Shown in pieces: positions 46,024 to 54,384 of a stretch of 64,000 bases of DNA (position 1 is the stretch's first letter; each line of letters starts with the position of its first letter). The stretch is from Desulfobacteraceae bacterium. Its GTDB lineage: Bacteria > Desulfobacterota > Desulfobacteria > Desulfobacterales > RPRI01. Made by a program: the position numbers and the translations under genes. The stretch spans positions 1 to 64,000 of the forward strand of contig JAABQB010000005.1 in assembly GCA_011391695.1 (NCBI GenBank), given 5' to 3'. Below the pieces are notes generated by a model. It had not been told where the DNA came from. It saw only the letters and a program-made list of their open reading frames with translations, and did not search any database.

Positions 46024-47442
46024 ATGAAAACATCAGAAGAAAAAGTAAAACCATTCAGACTTGTAAAATATTTCACTTTTTCAAGCATTATCGTAATATT
46101 CATAGGCACAATAGTACTATCCGTTCTTAACACCAACTGGATTCGGACAACCCAGCTAAAAATGAGCGAGGATTATGCGAAGCTCATAGTTGAAAATCTT
46201 AATCATCAGATTTTTTTACAATTTATTCTTCCTGTTTCTGTAAAATACGGAAAAATCCAGTTAAGAAATCCGGAACAATCTCAAATTATGGATAATGTAA
46301 TAAAAAGCACTCTTCATGGCTATAAAATTGATTCGGTAACCATATACGATTTTAAGAAAAATATGGTTTCGTATAGTTTTGATAAAAGCCTGGTGGGAAA
46401 AGAGAATGTTGGCGGGCAGGAGTATAAGAAAGCTGTTGCCGGTGAGTCATCAATAAAACTGGTACAAAAAGGAAATTTTATTGAAACCCTGCTTGGTTTT
46501 CCCGCCGAAATTAAAATGGTTACTTTCGCTCCGCTGCGACTGGAAAGAGCGCGGCCCGGTACCGAGGGTCCAATAGTGGGTGTTATTGAAGTAGTCGAAA
46601 ATTTATCCGATGATTATAAAACGATTTTCAGATTTCAGCTTTTTATTATAGGAACAATAACAGTTGTCATGAGCGGTCTCTTTGCCACTCTTTTTTGTGT
46701 GGTCAGAAGAGGGGAAGACATAATCGAAAAGCGCGCTGTAGAGCGTCTAAATCTTGAAGAACAACTGAGACGCGCCGAACACTTATCATCTATAGGTGAA
46801 ATGGTTGCCGGAATTTCACATGAAATCAGGAATCCTCTGGGAATCATCAGGAGTTCGGGCGAGCTTTTAAAGAAAAAAATTGCGACCATAGATCCGGCCA
46901 ATTCTATTCCCGATATAATAGTTGAAGAGACTGTAAGGCTTAATGATATTATAACTGATTTCCTTGATTTTGCTAAGCCTAAGAATCCGGATTTTATGCC
47001 TTGCCATATAGAAGATATTCTTGAAAAAAACATCGTATTTCTTGATCAGCAATTTAAAGAAAGCGGATGTATTGTTGAAACTGTCATGGCCTCCGACCTC
47101 CCTGAAGTATTCGCTGATTTCAATATGTTGTACCAGGCATTTTTAAATATTCTTATCAACAGTATGCAGGCAATGCCTGACGGCGGAAAAATTTCTGTTT
47201 CAGCAACTCCTAATCATGCCGGAATCAATATTGTATTTGAAGATGAAGGGACAGGAATTCCTGAAGATCTTTTGAAGAAGATCTGGGATCCCTTTTTTTC
47301 AACCAAAGATAAAGGAACAGGTCTTGGTCTTGGAATTGTAAAAAAAATTATCGAGGCTCACAGCGGCATAGTTGAAATCTCAAACAGGCCTGTCCGGGGT
47401 GTTCAGGTCCGGGTAGCAATACCTGCAAGGCAGGGGGTATAA
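46024..47442 (+). CDS. Sensor histidine kinase
   Basis: HEIRNPLGIIRSSGELLKK (H-box), N/G boxes FLNILINSMQAMPDGG, DEGTGIPEDLLKKIWDPFFSTKDKGTGLGLGIVKK. ORF opens at 45904; ATG 46024 (MKTSEEKVKPF) preferred. Confidence 0.92.
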   Translation: MKTSEEKVKPFRLVKYFTFSSIIVIFIGTIVLSVLNTNWIRTTQLKMSEDYAKLIVENLNHQIFLQFILPVSVKYGKIQLRNPEQSQIMDNVIKSTLHGYKIDSVTIYDFKKNMVSYSFDKSLVGKENVGGQEYKKAVAGESSIKLVQKGNFIETLLGFPAEIKMVTFAPLRLERARPGTEGPIVGVIEVVENLSDDYKTIFRFQLFIIGTITVVMSGLFATLFCVVRRGEDIIEKRAVERLNLEEQLRRAEHLSSIGEMVAGISHEIRNPLGIIRSSGELLKKKIATIDPANSIPDIIVEETVRLNDIITDFLDFAKPKNPDFMPCHIEDILEKNIVFLDQQFKESGCIVETVMASDLPEVFADFNMLYQAFLNILINSMQAMPDGGKISVSATPNHAGINIVFEDEGTGIPEDLLKKIWDPFFSTKDKGTGLGLGIVKKIIEAHSGIVEISNRPVRGVQVRVAIPARQGV

Positions 47443-47444
47443 GC

Positions 47445-48824
47445 ATGGAAACTGTTTTGATAGTAGATGACGAGAAAAACTATCCTCCTATTTTAAGCGC
47501 AATACTTGAAGAGGAAGGATATGAAACCCTGACCGCAAATAACGGCATTACTGCTCTTGAAATTGTACAGAATTCAGATCTCGATCTGGTTCTGACAGAT
47601 ATGAAAATGCCTCTTATGGATGGAATTGAACTCCTTGAAAGAATCAAGGCAATAGATCCAGATCTCCCGGTTATAATGATGACAGCCCATGGGACTGTTG
47701 AAAAAGCCGTGGAAGCGATGCAGAAAGGAGCTTATAATTATATACTTAAGCCTTTCAATAATAAGAGTCTCATTATTTATGTCAAAAAAGCCATGGCCAT
47801 GTACAGTGTTGTCAAAGAAAACAGAAGACTGCGCAATGTTGTAGAATTGCAATATAATTTTGGAAATTTGATCGGTAAAAGCAACGTCATGCTTAATGTC
47901 TTTGAAACTATACGCAAGATTTCCCCGTCTTCTGCTACTGTATTAATAGAAGGAGAAAGCGGTACCGGAAAGGAGCTTGTTGCAAAATCAATACATTTTA
48001 ACAGTCCGAGGAGAGATAAAGCCTTTATAGCAGTAAATTGTTCGGCTCTTGCTGAAAACCTTCTTGAAAGCGAGTTGTTCGGCCACGAAAAGGGCGCCTT
48101 TACAGGAGCAATTTCCATGAAGAAAGGCCGGTTCGAACTGGCAGATGGAGGTTCCCTTTTTCTTGATGAAATATCTGAACTATCTCAGGGACTCCAGGTA
48201 AAATTGCTTCGCGTGCTTCAGGAGAGAAATTTTGAAAGAGTAGGCGGAATTAAACCGATTATTGTAGATATTCGCATTATTGCTGCAACAAACAGGCAGT
48301 TAATAGAAGAGGTAAAGCAAGGTCGTTTCAGGGAAGACCTGTTTTATCGTCTCAATGTTATTAATATTGTCATTCCGCCTTTACGGCAAAGACTGGAAGA
48401 CATACGCCTGCTTGTCGATCACTTTATAAAAAAATATGCCGCAGAAAGAAAAACGGGGCCAAACATAACAGGCGTTGATACAGATGTTGAACGTCTTTTG
48501 TACGATTATACATGGCCCGGAAATGTCCGCGAACTTGAAAATGCAATAGAAAGAGCCATGGTTTTATGTACGGGGGATAAAATAAGGGTTTTCGATCTGC
48601 CAAGAGGATTTAAAGATAATGTCTATGGTCCTATTCGTTTTGACGGAATTCCAGTTACGGCAAAATTATATGAAACCCTGGAGTTAGTTGAAAAGGTCAT
48701 GATAGAAAGAGCCTTGAAAATAACAAATAATGTTCAATCTCATGCGGCAGAATTGCTTGGTATAGGAAAAAGCGGTCTTAATCAGAAATTAAAAAAGTTT
48801 AACATGGATGCCAATTCAAAATAA
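47445..48824 (+). CDS. Sigma-54-dependent response regulator (NtrC family)
   Basis: Receiver VLIVDDEKNY...LVLTDMKMPLMDG; AAA+ ESGTGKE, GAFTGAISMKKGRFELADGG; C-terminal Fis-type HTH. Confidence 0.95.
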   Translation: METVLIVDDEKNYPPILSAILEEEGYETLTANNGITALEIVQNSDLDLVLTDMKMPLMDGIELLERIKAIDPDLPVIMMTAHGTVEKAVEAMQKGAYNYILKPFNNKSLIIYVKKAMAMYSVVKENRRLRNVVELQYNFGNLIGKSNVMLNVFETIRKISPSSATVLIEGESGTGKELVAKSIHFNSPRRDKAFIAVNCSALAENLLESELFGHEKGAFTGAISMKKGRFELADGGSLFLDEISELSQGLQVKLLRVLQERNFERVGGIKPIIVDIRIIAATNRQLIEEVKQGRFREDLFYRLNVINIVIPPLRQRLEDIRLLVDHFIKKYAAERKTGPNITGVDTDVERLLYDYTWPGNVRELENAIERAMVLCTGDKIRVFDLPRGFKDNVYGPIRFDGIPVTAKLYETLELVEKVMIERALKITNNVQSHAAELLGIGKSGLNQKLKKFNMDANSK

Positions 48825-49107
48825 TAAACTTGCTATAAAAGCAAATATACCAGCATGTTAATATGTAAAAGCATTATATGTATAATATTAGTTCAAAAAA
48901 AAGAATTCCGGTTCAAATAAAATATATATTATATAAACAAAGAGTTATCTGCGAATACAAATTATCTGGTTCAAAATTTTGAACAAAAGGCAAGCCAACT
49001 GATATATAAAACCATGTTTTAATAAAATCGGAGCATAAGGTAAAGAGGCTAACCGTCTTAAATTTAAGGGTATTGATATAAATACCAATTATTTTTATTA
49101 GAAAAAC

Positions 49108-49161
49108 TTATTTGGCAAGCAACTTGCATCTCTTTATTTCCAAACCTGATAAGTTTTTCAT
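49108..49161 (-). CDS. Candidate 17-aa small ORF
   Basis: Minus strand AAGGAGGAAAG-ATG followed by MKNLSGLEIKRCKLLAK-stop; near-perfect Shine-Dalgarno, below the ORF-track cutoff. Confidence 0.35.
   Translation of the reverse strand: MKNLSGLEIKRCKLLAK
49113..49128 (+). promoter_or_regulatory. Putative sigma-54 promoter
   Basis: TTGGCAAGCAACTTGCA: GG (49114-49115)-N10-GC (49126-49127), matching the -24/-12 layout TGGCA-N6-TTGCA; directly downstream of a sigma-54 activator gene. Confidence 0.5.
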
Positions 49162-49172
49162 CTTTCCTCCTT

Positions 49173-49212
49173 AACGGTCTTCCGAAATATTCGGTTGGCC
49201 GTTATTTTTTTT
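49173..49212 (+). terminator. Rho-independent terminator
   Basis: AACGG (49173-49177)/CCGTT (49199-49203) with inner CCGAA/TTCGG stem, then A plus T8. Confidence 0.7.
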
Positions 49213-49222
49213 GTAGGACCTG

Positions 49223-49903
49223 TCACGAACGTTCTTTTGCAATTGGAAGGTAAAAAGAACCGGCAAAGTCAGACACTATCTTCTTATAAGCATCCCTGCT
49301 CATCTTCTCGTTTCCCATTTCAGCATAAATTCTTCCAAGATTGAACAAGGCTTCGTCTTTCAGGAAAGTATCAGGTTCTGATACAATCATTTCAAAATAC
49401 TTTACCGAAGATTTTAAATCATTTTTTCCTTCATAAGCATAACCGAGGTTGCTTAATATAATGTTTTTTACTGTCTGGTCATTACTAAAATATTCAAGCG
49501 CTTTAATGTAAAGTTCTATTGCACTGTCAGTGTCGCCGGCATTGATAGATATATTGGCTAATTCTATCCGTGCTATCTTTCCGCCTCGGTTGCCCGAATA
49601 TTTTTCAATTATTTTAACAAAATCATTTTTTGCTTCTTTAAAAGCATTTTCCGGGCCGTTTTTCTTAAGCGAAACTTCATAGTTTTTCATTGTCTTATCG
49701 AGCAGGGCAAAAGCCAGGCCTTCAGATCTGAATGCAAAATAGCTGATTCCGGAAAATACTATTCCTATTAAAAACAATAACCCGACCGCATATAAAAATT
49801 GTACCTTATATGTTGCCATAATTTTCAGCAGTTTTGCTGAAAAAGTTATAAATTCATCAGGTTCATTCAAAAGTTCTTTTCTTGTAACTTTCTTTTTTGC
49901 CAT
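49223..49903 (-). CDS. Membrane-anchored tetratricopeptide repeat protein
   Basis: N-terminal TM; YKVQFLYAVGLLFLIGIVFSGISYFAF; TPR-like repeats (NLGYAYEGKNDLKSSVKYFEMIV, ALFNLGRIYAEMGNEKMSRDAYKKIV). Confidence 0.75.
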   Translation of the reverse strand: MAKKKVTRKELLNEPDEFITFSAKLLKIMATYKVQFLYAVGLLFLIGIVFSGISYFAFRSEGLAFALLDKTMKNYEVSLKKNGPENAFKEAKNDFVKIIEKYSGNRGGKIARIELANISINAGDTDSAIELYIKALEYFSNDQTVKNIILSNLGYAYEGKNDLKSSVKYFEMIVSEPDTFLKDEALFNLGRIYAEMGNEKMSRDAYKKIVSDFAGSFYLPIAKERS

Positions 49904-52956: not shown

Positions 52957-54384
52957 ATGAAAGATTTTCTATCTTTTTTTTCAAGCATCAGATGGCAGGA
53001 TGTAGTTGATATTATAATAAACAGCTATATCGTGTTCAGATCATATATTCTCTTCCGTGGAACCAACGCTTTCCGTGTTCTGATTGGAATTGCTCTTCTT
53101 TGGTTCTTCCAGAAAATAGCCTTATCTATGGGGCTGATAATAACAAGTTGGGCTATTCAGGGCATAACAGCTGTTGCTGCGCTGATCATAGTCGTAGTTT
53201 TTAGAAATGAAATACGCAGCGTTTTACAGGCCAAAAACCTGAAAACAATTATATGGGGCGTTTCACAAAAAACAATCACAACGCCAGTTGAAATAATTAC
53301 GGATAGTGTTTTTGAACTATCCAGGAAACATACCGGAGCGCTTCTTGTCTTCCCGGCAAATGAAGATATAGATGAATTCGTTCAGGGCGGTATCCCCTGG
53401 CGAGGAGTAGTCTCCAAAGAAATGATATTGAGCATTTTCTGGCATGATAACCCTGTGCATGATGGCGCAGCTATAATACGCAGGGACAGGATTACGGATG
53501 TTGCATGTATTCTTCCTCTTTCACACAGTAATGATCTACCATCTTATTATGGAACCCGACACAGAGCCGCTCTCGGACTGGCTGAAGTGTCTGATGCCAT
53601 GGTGGTCGTTGTCTCCGAAGAACGTGGCACCATTACTGTTGCTAAAGACTCCCAGACATATTCCATAACCCGGAAAGAGGAATTAAAACAGCATTTGCAG
53701 GAACACATGGGAGATATGCCAAAAAGTATAGATCAGCGAAAAGAAAAAATCAAAATATCTGTTGCTGCCCTTGTCTCTTTCCTGTTCATAGTCGGGGTCT
53801 GGTTCAGTTTTTCAAGAGGCATGGAAACTTTGATGAACATTGAAATTCCTGTTGAATATGTGAATCGTAATACGGAAATGGAAATTATAGATACCTCGGT
53901 AAATTCTGTAACTCTTAATCTTAGCGGATCGGGCTCGCTTATTAAATCTATCCGCCCTGAACAAGTAAAAGTCAAAATAGACCTTGGAAAAGTGACAGGT
54001 GGGAAGAACTCTTTTCTGATAACAGACGAAAACGTTTCTCTCCCGCCCGGGATAGCGCTAAAAAACGTGAGTCCACCAATAGTTGAAGTAACTCTCGGAA
54101 TACCTGTTGTCAGGGAATTGCCGGTACAGGTCGACTGGGCCGGTAAACTCCCAAAAAACCTTGCGCTTGAAAATGTAAAAATTGAACCAGGAAAAGTCAG
54201 GGTAATAGGCGGAAAGCGAATTTTAGATAAAATTTCAAGTATTTATACTGATAAAATTTATCTTGATAATATATATTATTCCGGAGCCAAAACTGTCAGG
54301 CTATCGCTCAGTCCTCCTTCCCTGAGAATCGCACCGGAATCGAGCGACACGGTCACAGTTGAATATGTTGTGAAAAAAAAGTAA
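52957..54384 (+). CDS. Diadenylate cyclase (CdaA/DisA_N) fused to C-terminal YbbR-like region
   Basis: TM N-terminus IRWQDVVDIIINSYIVFRSYILFRGTNAFRVLIG; DNPVHDGAAIIRRDRI (DGA), YGTRHRAALGLAEVSDAMVVVVSEERGTI (RHR); then TM and YbbR-like EIPVEYVN...VKVKIDLGKV repeats. Confidence 0.88.
   Translation: MKDFLSFFSSIRWQDVVDIIINSYIVFRSYILFRGTNAFRVLIGIALLWFFQKIALSMGLIITSWAIQGITAVAALIIVVVFRNEIRSVLQAKNLKTIIWGVSQKTITTPVEIITDSVFELSRKHTGALLVFPANEDIDEFVQGGIPWRGVVSKEMILSIFWHDNPVHDGAAIIRRDRITDVACILPLSHSNDLPSYYGTRHRAALGLAEVSDAMVVVVSEERGTITVAKDSQTYSITRKEELKQHLQEHMGDMPKSIDQRKEKIKISVAALVSFLFIVGVWFSFSRGMETLMNIEIPVEYVNRNTEMEIIDTSVNSVTLNLSGSGSLIKSIRPEQVKVKIDLGKVTGGKNSFLITDENVSLPPGIALKNVSPPIVEVTLGIPVVRELPVQVDWAGKLPKNLALENVKIEPGKVRVIGGKRILDKISSIYTDKIYLDNIYYSGAKTVRLSLSPPSLRIAPESSDTVTVEYVVKKK

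Follow-up and report, generated by a model that had tools for sequence, protein, structure and literature searches.

A putative sigma-54-dependent small RNA beside an NtrC-type two-component system in Desulfobacterales, with predicted pairing to outer-membrane porin mRNAs

The two-component locus and its downstream gap

The 64-kb stretch of Desulfobacteraceae DNA analysed here (the window) carries a sensor histidine kinase gene, followed by the gene for an NtrC-type response regulator and, beyond a gap, by a TPR gene in convergent orientation (Table 1). The likely start of the kinase is ATG 46024, the Met at which ortholog alignments begin. The kinase has a Cache-like periplasmic domain between two membrane helices, and its AF2 model (pLDDT 81) finds its top PDB matches in the WalK/YycG and CitA sensor domains, which makes a small ligand or an envelope cue plausible as the signal. 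Full-length or near-full-length orthologs of the regulator (57-93% identity) are present in about 50 of the 59 Desulfobacterales relatives, from 50 families of the order, that served as the comparison set.

The motifs listed in a preliminary description of this DNA are all present and lie in the gap between the regulator and TPR genes. On comparative sequence evidence, the gap holds a real, uncatalogued sRNA gene, conserved across this order of sulfate reducers. In the predicted fold of the RNA, the terminator hairpin is the only stable element and the 5' half stays essentially unpaired. Rfam searches by gathering score and by E-value matched no family (the best hits were at chance level), and searches of the open-access literature found no description of an sRNA or sRNA regulon for Desulfobacterales.

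Table 1. Coordinates of genes and predicted elements at the locus (window numbering).
Feature	Position	Strand	Description
Sensor histidine kinase gene	46024-47442	+	HisKA and HATPase_c (PF00512, PF02518)
NtrC-type response regulator gene	47445-48824	+	Receiver, sigma-54 AAA+ with GAFTGA, Fis-type HTH (PF00072, PF00158, PF02954)
Upstream activating site 3	48814-48829		ATTCAAAATAATAAAC, degenerate; -298 from the -24 box; overlaps the end of the regulator gene
Upstream activating site 2	48891-48906		GTTCAAAAAAAAGAAT, degenerate; position -221; bins -240 to -210 peak across copies
Upstream activating site 1	48969-48984		GTTCAAAATTTTGAAC, perfect 16-bp palindrome; position -143; conserved, type co-varies with the regulator HTH
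IHF-like element	49050-49062		TAACCGTCTTAAA, degenerate and weak in the window; suggested there by the relatives
Sigma-54 promoter (-24/-12)	49112-49128	+	TTGGCAAGCAACTTGCA; GG 49114-49115, N10, GC 49126-49127
sRNA gene	49139-49212	+	Predicted 74 nt; covariance model R1, 80.5 bits, E 9.6e-12 (this copy is one of the 19 sequences that built the model)
Pairing region	49143-49175	+	AACCUGAUAAGUUUUUCAUCUUUCCUCCUUAAC; unstructured, conserved; complement of Shine-Dalgarno and AUG of porin mRNAs
Anti-Shine-Dalgarno-like stretch	49163-49175	+	UUUCCUCCUUAAC; read in the sequence
Intrinsic terminator	49172-49212	+	Hairpin 49172-49204, T8 49205-49212; fold -18.6 kcal/mol
TPR gene	49223-49903	-	Convergent, downstream of the sRNA gene

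Conservation of the sRNA gene, its promoter and its upstream sites

About half of the regulator loci share the same downstream order of palindromes, sigma-54 box, conserved core (AACCURAUAAUUUUUUCAUCUGUUUUCCUCCUUAACGGC) and terminator. A covariance model trained on 19 transcripts, with the promoter left out, matches 44 of the 59 genomes, with a single match in the window's own genome; a covariance search of this kind had been proposed in the preliminary description. The terminator ending in T8 noted there is present and conserved, and its stem shows double changes in 11 of 13 pairs across the 19 sequences, as a maintained terminator should. Among 395 genomes drawn from the phylum, the sRNA was found in 10 of 17 from the same order and in two others (L221, L222), both of which also show the sigma-54 box. 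Among 84,980 named genomes, the exact promoter-plus-core pattern occurs in 39 stretches, 38 of them from Desulfobacterales or other deltaproteobacteria; the culturable Desulfonema magnum 4be13 has the pattern, and the lone exception is taken as chance. The sequence comparisons thus indicate an sRNA family that is real and widespread.

Some genomes contain 3-4 copies, and G018 has copies in tandem. At L013, L018 and L019, among others, the TPR gene closely follows the regulator gene and the sRNA lies elsewhere in the genome. The neighbors of such unlinked copies are diverse, unrelated genes; a shared target operon beside them was considered and rejected, as nothing beyond small clusters recurs. 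In an uncultured Desulfococcus sp. (L162, 185-1386), three tandem copies follow one another at intervals of about 570 bp, and every copy has a sigma-54 box of its own; G005, G006 and G443 contain 3-4 dispersed copies. Such sets recall the multi-copy Qrr RNAs. Probable additional copies, beyond those of the covariance search, lie at L228 (G036:C19:23347) and L186 (G050:C19:32089). A MITE- or REP-like repeat containing GCAATGACGAAAGATGAAGCGCAAC, with more than 20 dispersed copies in G000 (e.g. L103, L112), is unrelated to the sRNA.

Nothing in the window other than the box TTGGCAAGCAACTTGCA fits YTGGCAN5YTTGCW without a mismatch; matches with up to two mismatches are as frequent there as expected by chance, so that only the exact match is informative. 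A near-consensus sigma-54 box lies at the expected fixed distance in 45 of 47 distinct sRNA copies found with the promoter-blind covariance model, the chance of a box at that place being ∼0.04% (1 in 2350 shuffles). The earlier reading of GG-N10-GC at 49114-49127 as a sigma-54 promoter is borne out by this conservation, and the spacing, whose loss in orthologous loci had been named as a refutation, is retained in the same 45 copies. The -24/-12 promoter stands at the 5' end of the predicted RNA, as in the sigma-54-dependent sRNA class.

Upstream of the promoter, palindromes at ∼150, ∼220-230 and ∼300 bp were found in 72 of 74 sRNA copies, compared with 1 of 74 shuffled sequences, and at least two palindromes in 53. 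These 74 are the copies with sufficient upstream sequence; about half were fetched by the sigma-54 pattern, which has no bearing on the palindromes. The main peak is bin -150, with 44 sites, in agreement with the proposal of an enhancer ∼150 bp upstream at 48969-48984, and bins -310 to -290, the third-site position, are filled in ∼18 copies. In the window, the mismatch-free GTTCAAAATTTTGAAC at 48969 is the only one in the whole 2.8-Mb assembly. The degenerate site at 48814, which overlaps the regulator gene's end, had been missed in the first reading. Two GTTCAAA half-sites had also been pointed out: that at 48891 belongs to the conserved, degenerate second site, while that at 48911 is not conserved as such. 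Likewise, the palindrome CTTAAATTTAAG (49057-49068) is present but not conserved as such, and both it and the 48911 half-site were discarded as functional motifs. CTTAAATTTAAG overlaps the position where many relatives have an IHF-like element, YAANNNNTTGATW, which is enriched at -65 to -50 (31 of 74, versus 9 of 74 shuffled).

The palindromes are of two types, GTTCAAAAT(A/T)TTGAAC or GTTTCCAAATGGAAAC, and are kept also at sRNA copies unlinked to the regulator gene. Their type perfectly co-varies with residue 447 in the recognition helix of the regulator HTH, which is Q, W or Y at 15 of 15 loci with GTTCAAA sites and K at 6 of 6 with GTTTCCA. In a regulator tree built without the HTH, at least three changes are needed, with inner branches that are weakly supported. 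This protein-DNA co-variation suggests that the adjacent regulator very likely binds these palindromes; recognition of the enhancer sites by the cognate regulator, which characterizes the sRNA class, is thus indicated by both conservation and co-variation. The two also occur together, the sRNA being found in 42 of 50 genomes with an orthologous regulator and in 2 of 9 without (p 5e-4), where the two are incomplete genomes. In some relatives with the regulator, the sRNA was not detected. The comparative evidence makes a strong case for the regulator link, and expression of the sRNA is almost certainly induced by the neighboring sensor-regulator pair. At the level of sequence comparison, this supports the earlier proposal that the adjacent NtrC-type regulator controls a sigma-54-driven RNA of ∼75 nt.

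Predicted pairing with porin mRNA starts

The reverse complement of the sRNA core, AAGGAGGAAA(ACA)GAUGAA, reads as a Shine-Dalgarno sequence and start codon. With up to two mismatches allowed, AAGGAGGAAAACAGATGAA matches the sRNA genes themselves across the 59 genomes and, in addition, a set of start regions in which those of outer-membrane proteins are frequent. Where the complement is exact and lies away from an sRNA gene, it marks a porin start: two divergent porins in G029 and one in G033. Matches with one mismatch include porins or other outer-membrane proteins in G016, G031, G021, G019 and G042, and an Ala-rich lipoprotein in G023; non-porin genes such as glutamine synthetase and flavodoxin are matched as well. 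The two porin genes in G029 (L227, ∼2660-2730) are oppositely oriented and unlike each other, and share a 25-nt sRNA-complementary start region. A glutamine synthetase start with one mismatch to the sRNA complement occurs in G013 (L172), a genome in which no sRNA was found.

Signal peptides starting with MKK bias a pattern of this kind, and porins (PF13609, PF13372) were therefore picked by protein homology instead, giving 16 starts in 13 genomes. None of these was picked by complementarity, although four porins that had been served as seeds for the search profile. Only 24 of the 59 genomes yielded porins of the family searched for. In duplex-only calculations, which leave out accessibility, the 16 starts pair with their cognate sRNA at -29.9 kcal/mol and with swapped sRNAs at -25.3 kcal/mol, and none of 10,000 permutations was as good; for background starts the average lies between about -12 and -17 kcal/mol, depending on the RNA. 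Fourteen of the 16 fall in the best 2% relative to 180 ordinary Shine-Dalgarno-led starts, and the same number relative to the 50 starts beginning MK, MN or MR. The G024 porin start and one in G043 pair barely better than ordinary starts. Across the relatives, complementarity to porin starts exceeds that to other genes, as in sRNAs that repress outer-membrane proteins, with 2 of 21 porin starts failing.

Matching changes in sRNA and porin are seen in G031 (UUUUUCUCCUU with AAGGAGAAAAA), G051 (CAUCUUUUUUUUCUCCUU with AAGGAGGAAAAAAAGAUG), G018 (AACCUAAU with AUUAGGUU) and the window's genus (AACCUGAU with AUCAGGUU). The sequence T(C/T)AGGTTAAGGAGGA occurs at nine sites in the 59 genomes, comprising seven porin starts, one contig-end ATG and one non-start; most come from one genus, so common descent contributes to this count. 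The anti-Shine-Dalgarno reading of the preliminary description was right, and the complementarity goes further, taking in the start codon and singling out porin genes. The case for porin targeting across the order is strong, and the sRNA very probably shuts off outer-membrane porins through pairing with their mRNA starts, as judged from these complementarities.

In the source genome the target is putative. The window's sRNA pairs with the porin starts of sister genomes at about -31 kcal/mol, compared with an average of -14 kcal/mol for the window's starts. Searches of its own 116-contig draft assembly for porins of the identified families found none. An incomplete assembly is a plausible reason: in the sister genome G002, a contig breaks exactly at such a start codon (ATG). 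A porin of this kind would be marked by the upstream sequence UUAUCAGGUUAAGGAGGAA. The best local candidate, a HU-family gene, pairs moderately (-22.9 kcal/mol) and was set aside as unconvincing.

The most serious alternative keeps the sigma-54 sRNA and its regulator and makes the RNA a broad anti-Shine-Dalgarno RNA, with porins only a part of its targets. The core does complement a near-ideal Shine-Dalgarno and AUG, and glutamine synthetase, flavodoxin, lipoprotein and HU-family starts are among the close matches. We nevertheless consider it unlikely, since the porins lie far outside the distribution of other Shine-Dalgarno-led starts, MK, MN and MR proteins included, and their starts co-vary with the cognate sRNA. 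Far less probable is that the conserved block marks the start of a minus-strand small protein gene. A perfect Shine-Dalgarno (AAGGAGG) and ATG (ATG AAA AAC ...) can be read at 49172-49159, but the frame is not conserved, its length in 29 copies ranging from 4 to 58 codons and mostly being 6-9, the ATG is absent from copies with a UUCUUC core, and promoter, enhancers and terminator are correctly ordered and spaced on the plus strand. It is just as improbable that the promoter yields a leader or readthrough transcript: any sigma-54 site could in principle feed genes downstream, but here these (TPR, PfkB) are convergent, a terminator follows immediately, and unlinked sRNA copies adjoin unrelated genes.

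Proposed circuit and comparison with known sRNAs

Sequence comparison thus supports the gene, its promoter and terminator, the regulator-site link and a porin complementarity that co-evolves with its targets. In the circuit we propose, the kinase would sense a periplasmic or envelope signal through its Cache-like domain and phosphorylate the regulator, which would occupy as many as three palindromes located 150-300 bp upstream (48969, 48891, 48814) and, probably assisted by IHF-type bending, activate sigma-54 RNA polymerase at 49112-49128 to produce the 74-nt sRNA. Through ∼20-27 nt of its open 5' half, the sRNA would then base-pair with the Shine-Dalgarno sequence and start codon in mRNAs for the major outer-membrane porins, and perhaps for other envelope proteins, so that ribosomes would be kept off and mRNA decay favored, all without Hfq. 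Most likely, an envelope or nutrient signal would induce the sRNA and so block porin translation. Transcription, repression as the direction of effect, the signal and Hfq independence are inferred. A search for Hfq (PF17209) found none in the 59 genomes and was positive in 5 of 14 control genomes; the Hfq dependence typical of enteric sRNAs that repress outer-membrane proteins probably does not apply here. We give the whole circuit, from two-component system through sigma-54 sRNA to Hfq-free porin repression, a probability of about 85%.

The Qrr RNAs of Vibrio are sigma-54 sRNAs under the NtrC-type regulator LuxO, sometimes adjacent to it and multi-copy, and are Hfq-dependent with quorum-sensing targets. 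The Desulfobacterales sRNA resembles them in its promoter, its type of activator, and its sometimes adjacent and multi-copy genes, and differs in Hfq dependence and targets. RybB and MicA are also Hfq-dependent. Both are sigma-E sRNAs that lower major outer-membrane protein mRNAs (PMC1804206); the present sRNA is likewise predicted to repress porin mRNAs, but from a sigma-54/two-component promoter and in 59 genomes without a detected Hfq. Its promoter logic is that of GlmY with QseE/QseF in Enterobacteriaceae: an NtrC-type regulator, three activating sites, IHF and a sigma-54 promoter (PMC6075780). In both, the sRNA gene adjoins a two-component system and is linked to the cell envelope; GlmY, in contrast, sequesters the protein RapZ, whereas the Desulfobacterales sRNA is predicted to pair with porin mRNAs, and Rfam detected no sequence relation between the two.

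In Myxococcus, the gene for an NtrC-like regulator (PxrR, with PxrK) lies directly upstream of the sRNA Pxr, a regulator of fruiting-body development that forms three stem-loops and is preceded by a predicted sigma-54 promoter and an enhancer region (PMC5684412). The gene order is the same here, but the only stable structure predicted in the RNA is its terminator hairpin, the 5' half being open. As far as tested, the sRNA falls outside the GlmY and RybB/MicA families and, judged from the described fold, presumably outside that of Pxr. NcS25 of Burkholderia regulates a porin through pairing and lacks an upstream sigma-54 site (PMC10117139), so that it resembles the present sRNA in predicted function but not in promoter.

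If the circuit is as proposed, these bacteria, in which Hfq is not detectable, have a widely conserved sRNA-target system whose mechanism is readable, and major sulfate reducers restrain porin synthesis in an independent way. As regulator, DNA code, RNA and targets are given together, every step is directly testable. More tentatively, and with somewhat less than even odds, an order-wide and maybe phylum-wide (given the two outlying matches) Hfq-independent envelope circuit might replace in Desulfobacterota the enteric sigma-E and its sRNAs, with an sRNA that arose from a porin 5' region copied in inverted orientation and co-evolves with the porins. The sRNA complement reads as a Shine-Dalgarno sequence followed by ATG AAG AAA TTA TTA GG.

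Elsewhere in the window, a single ORF (52957-54384) fuses a diadenylate cyclase domain (PF02457) to YbbR repeats (PF07949), domains that are usually encoded by separate adjoining genes, cdaA and cdaR.
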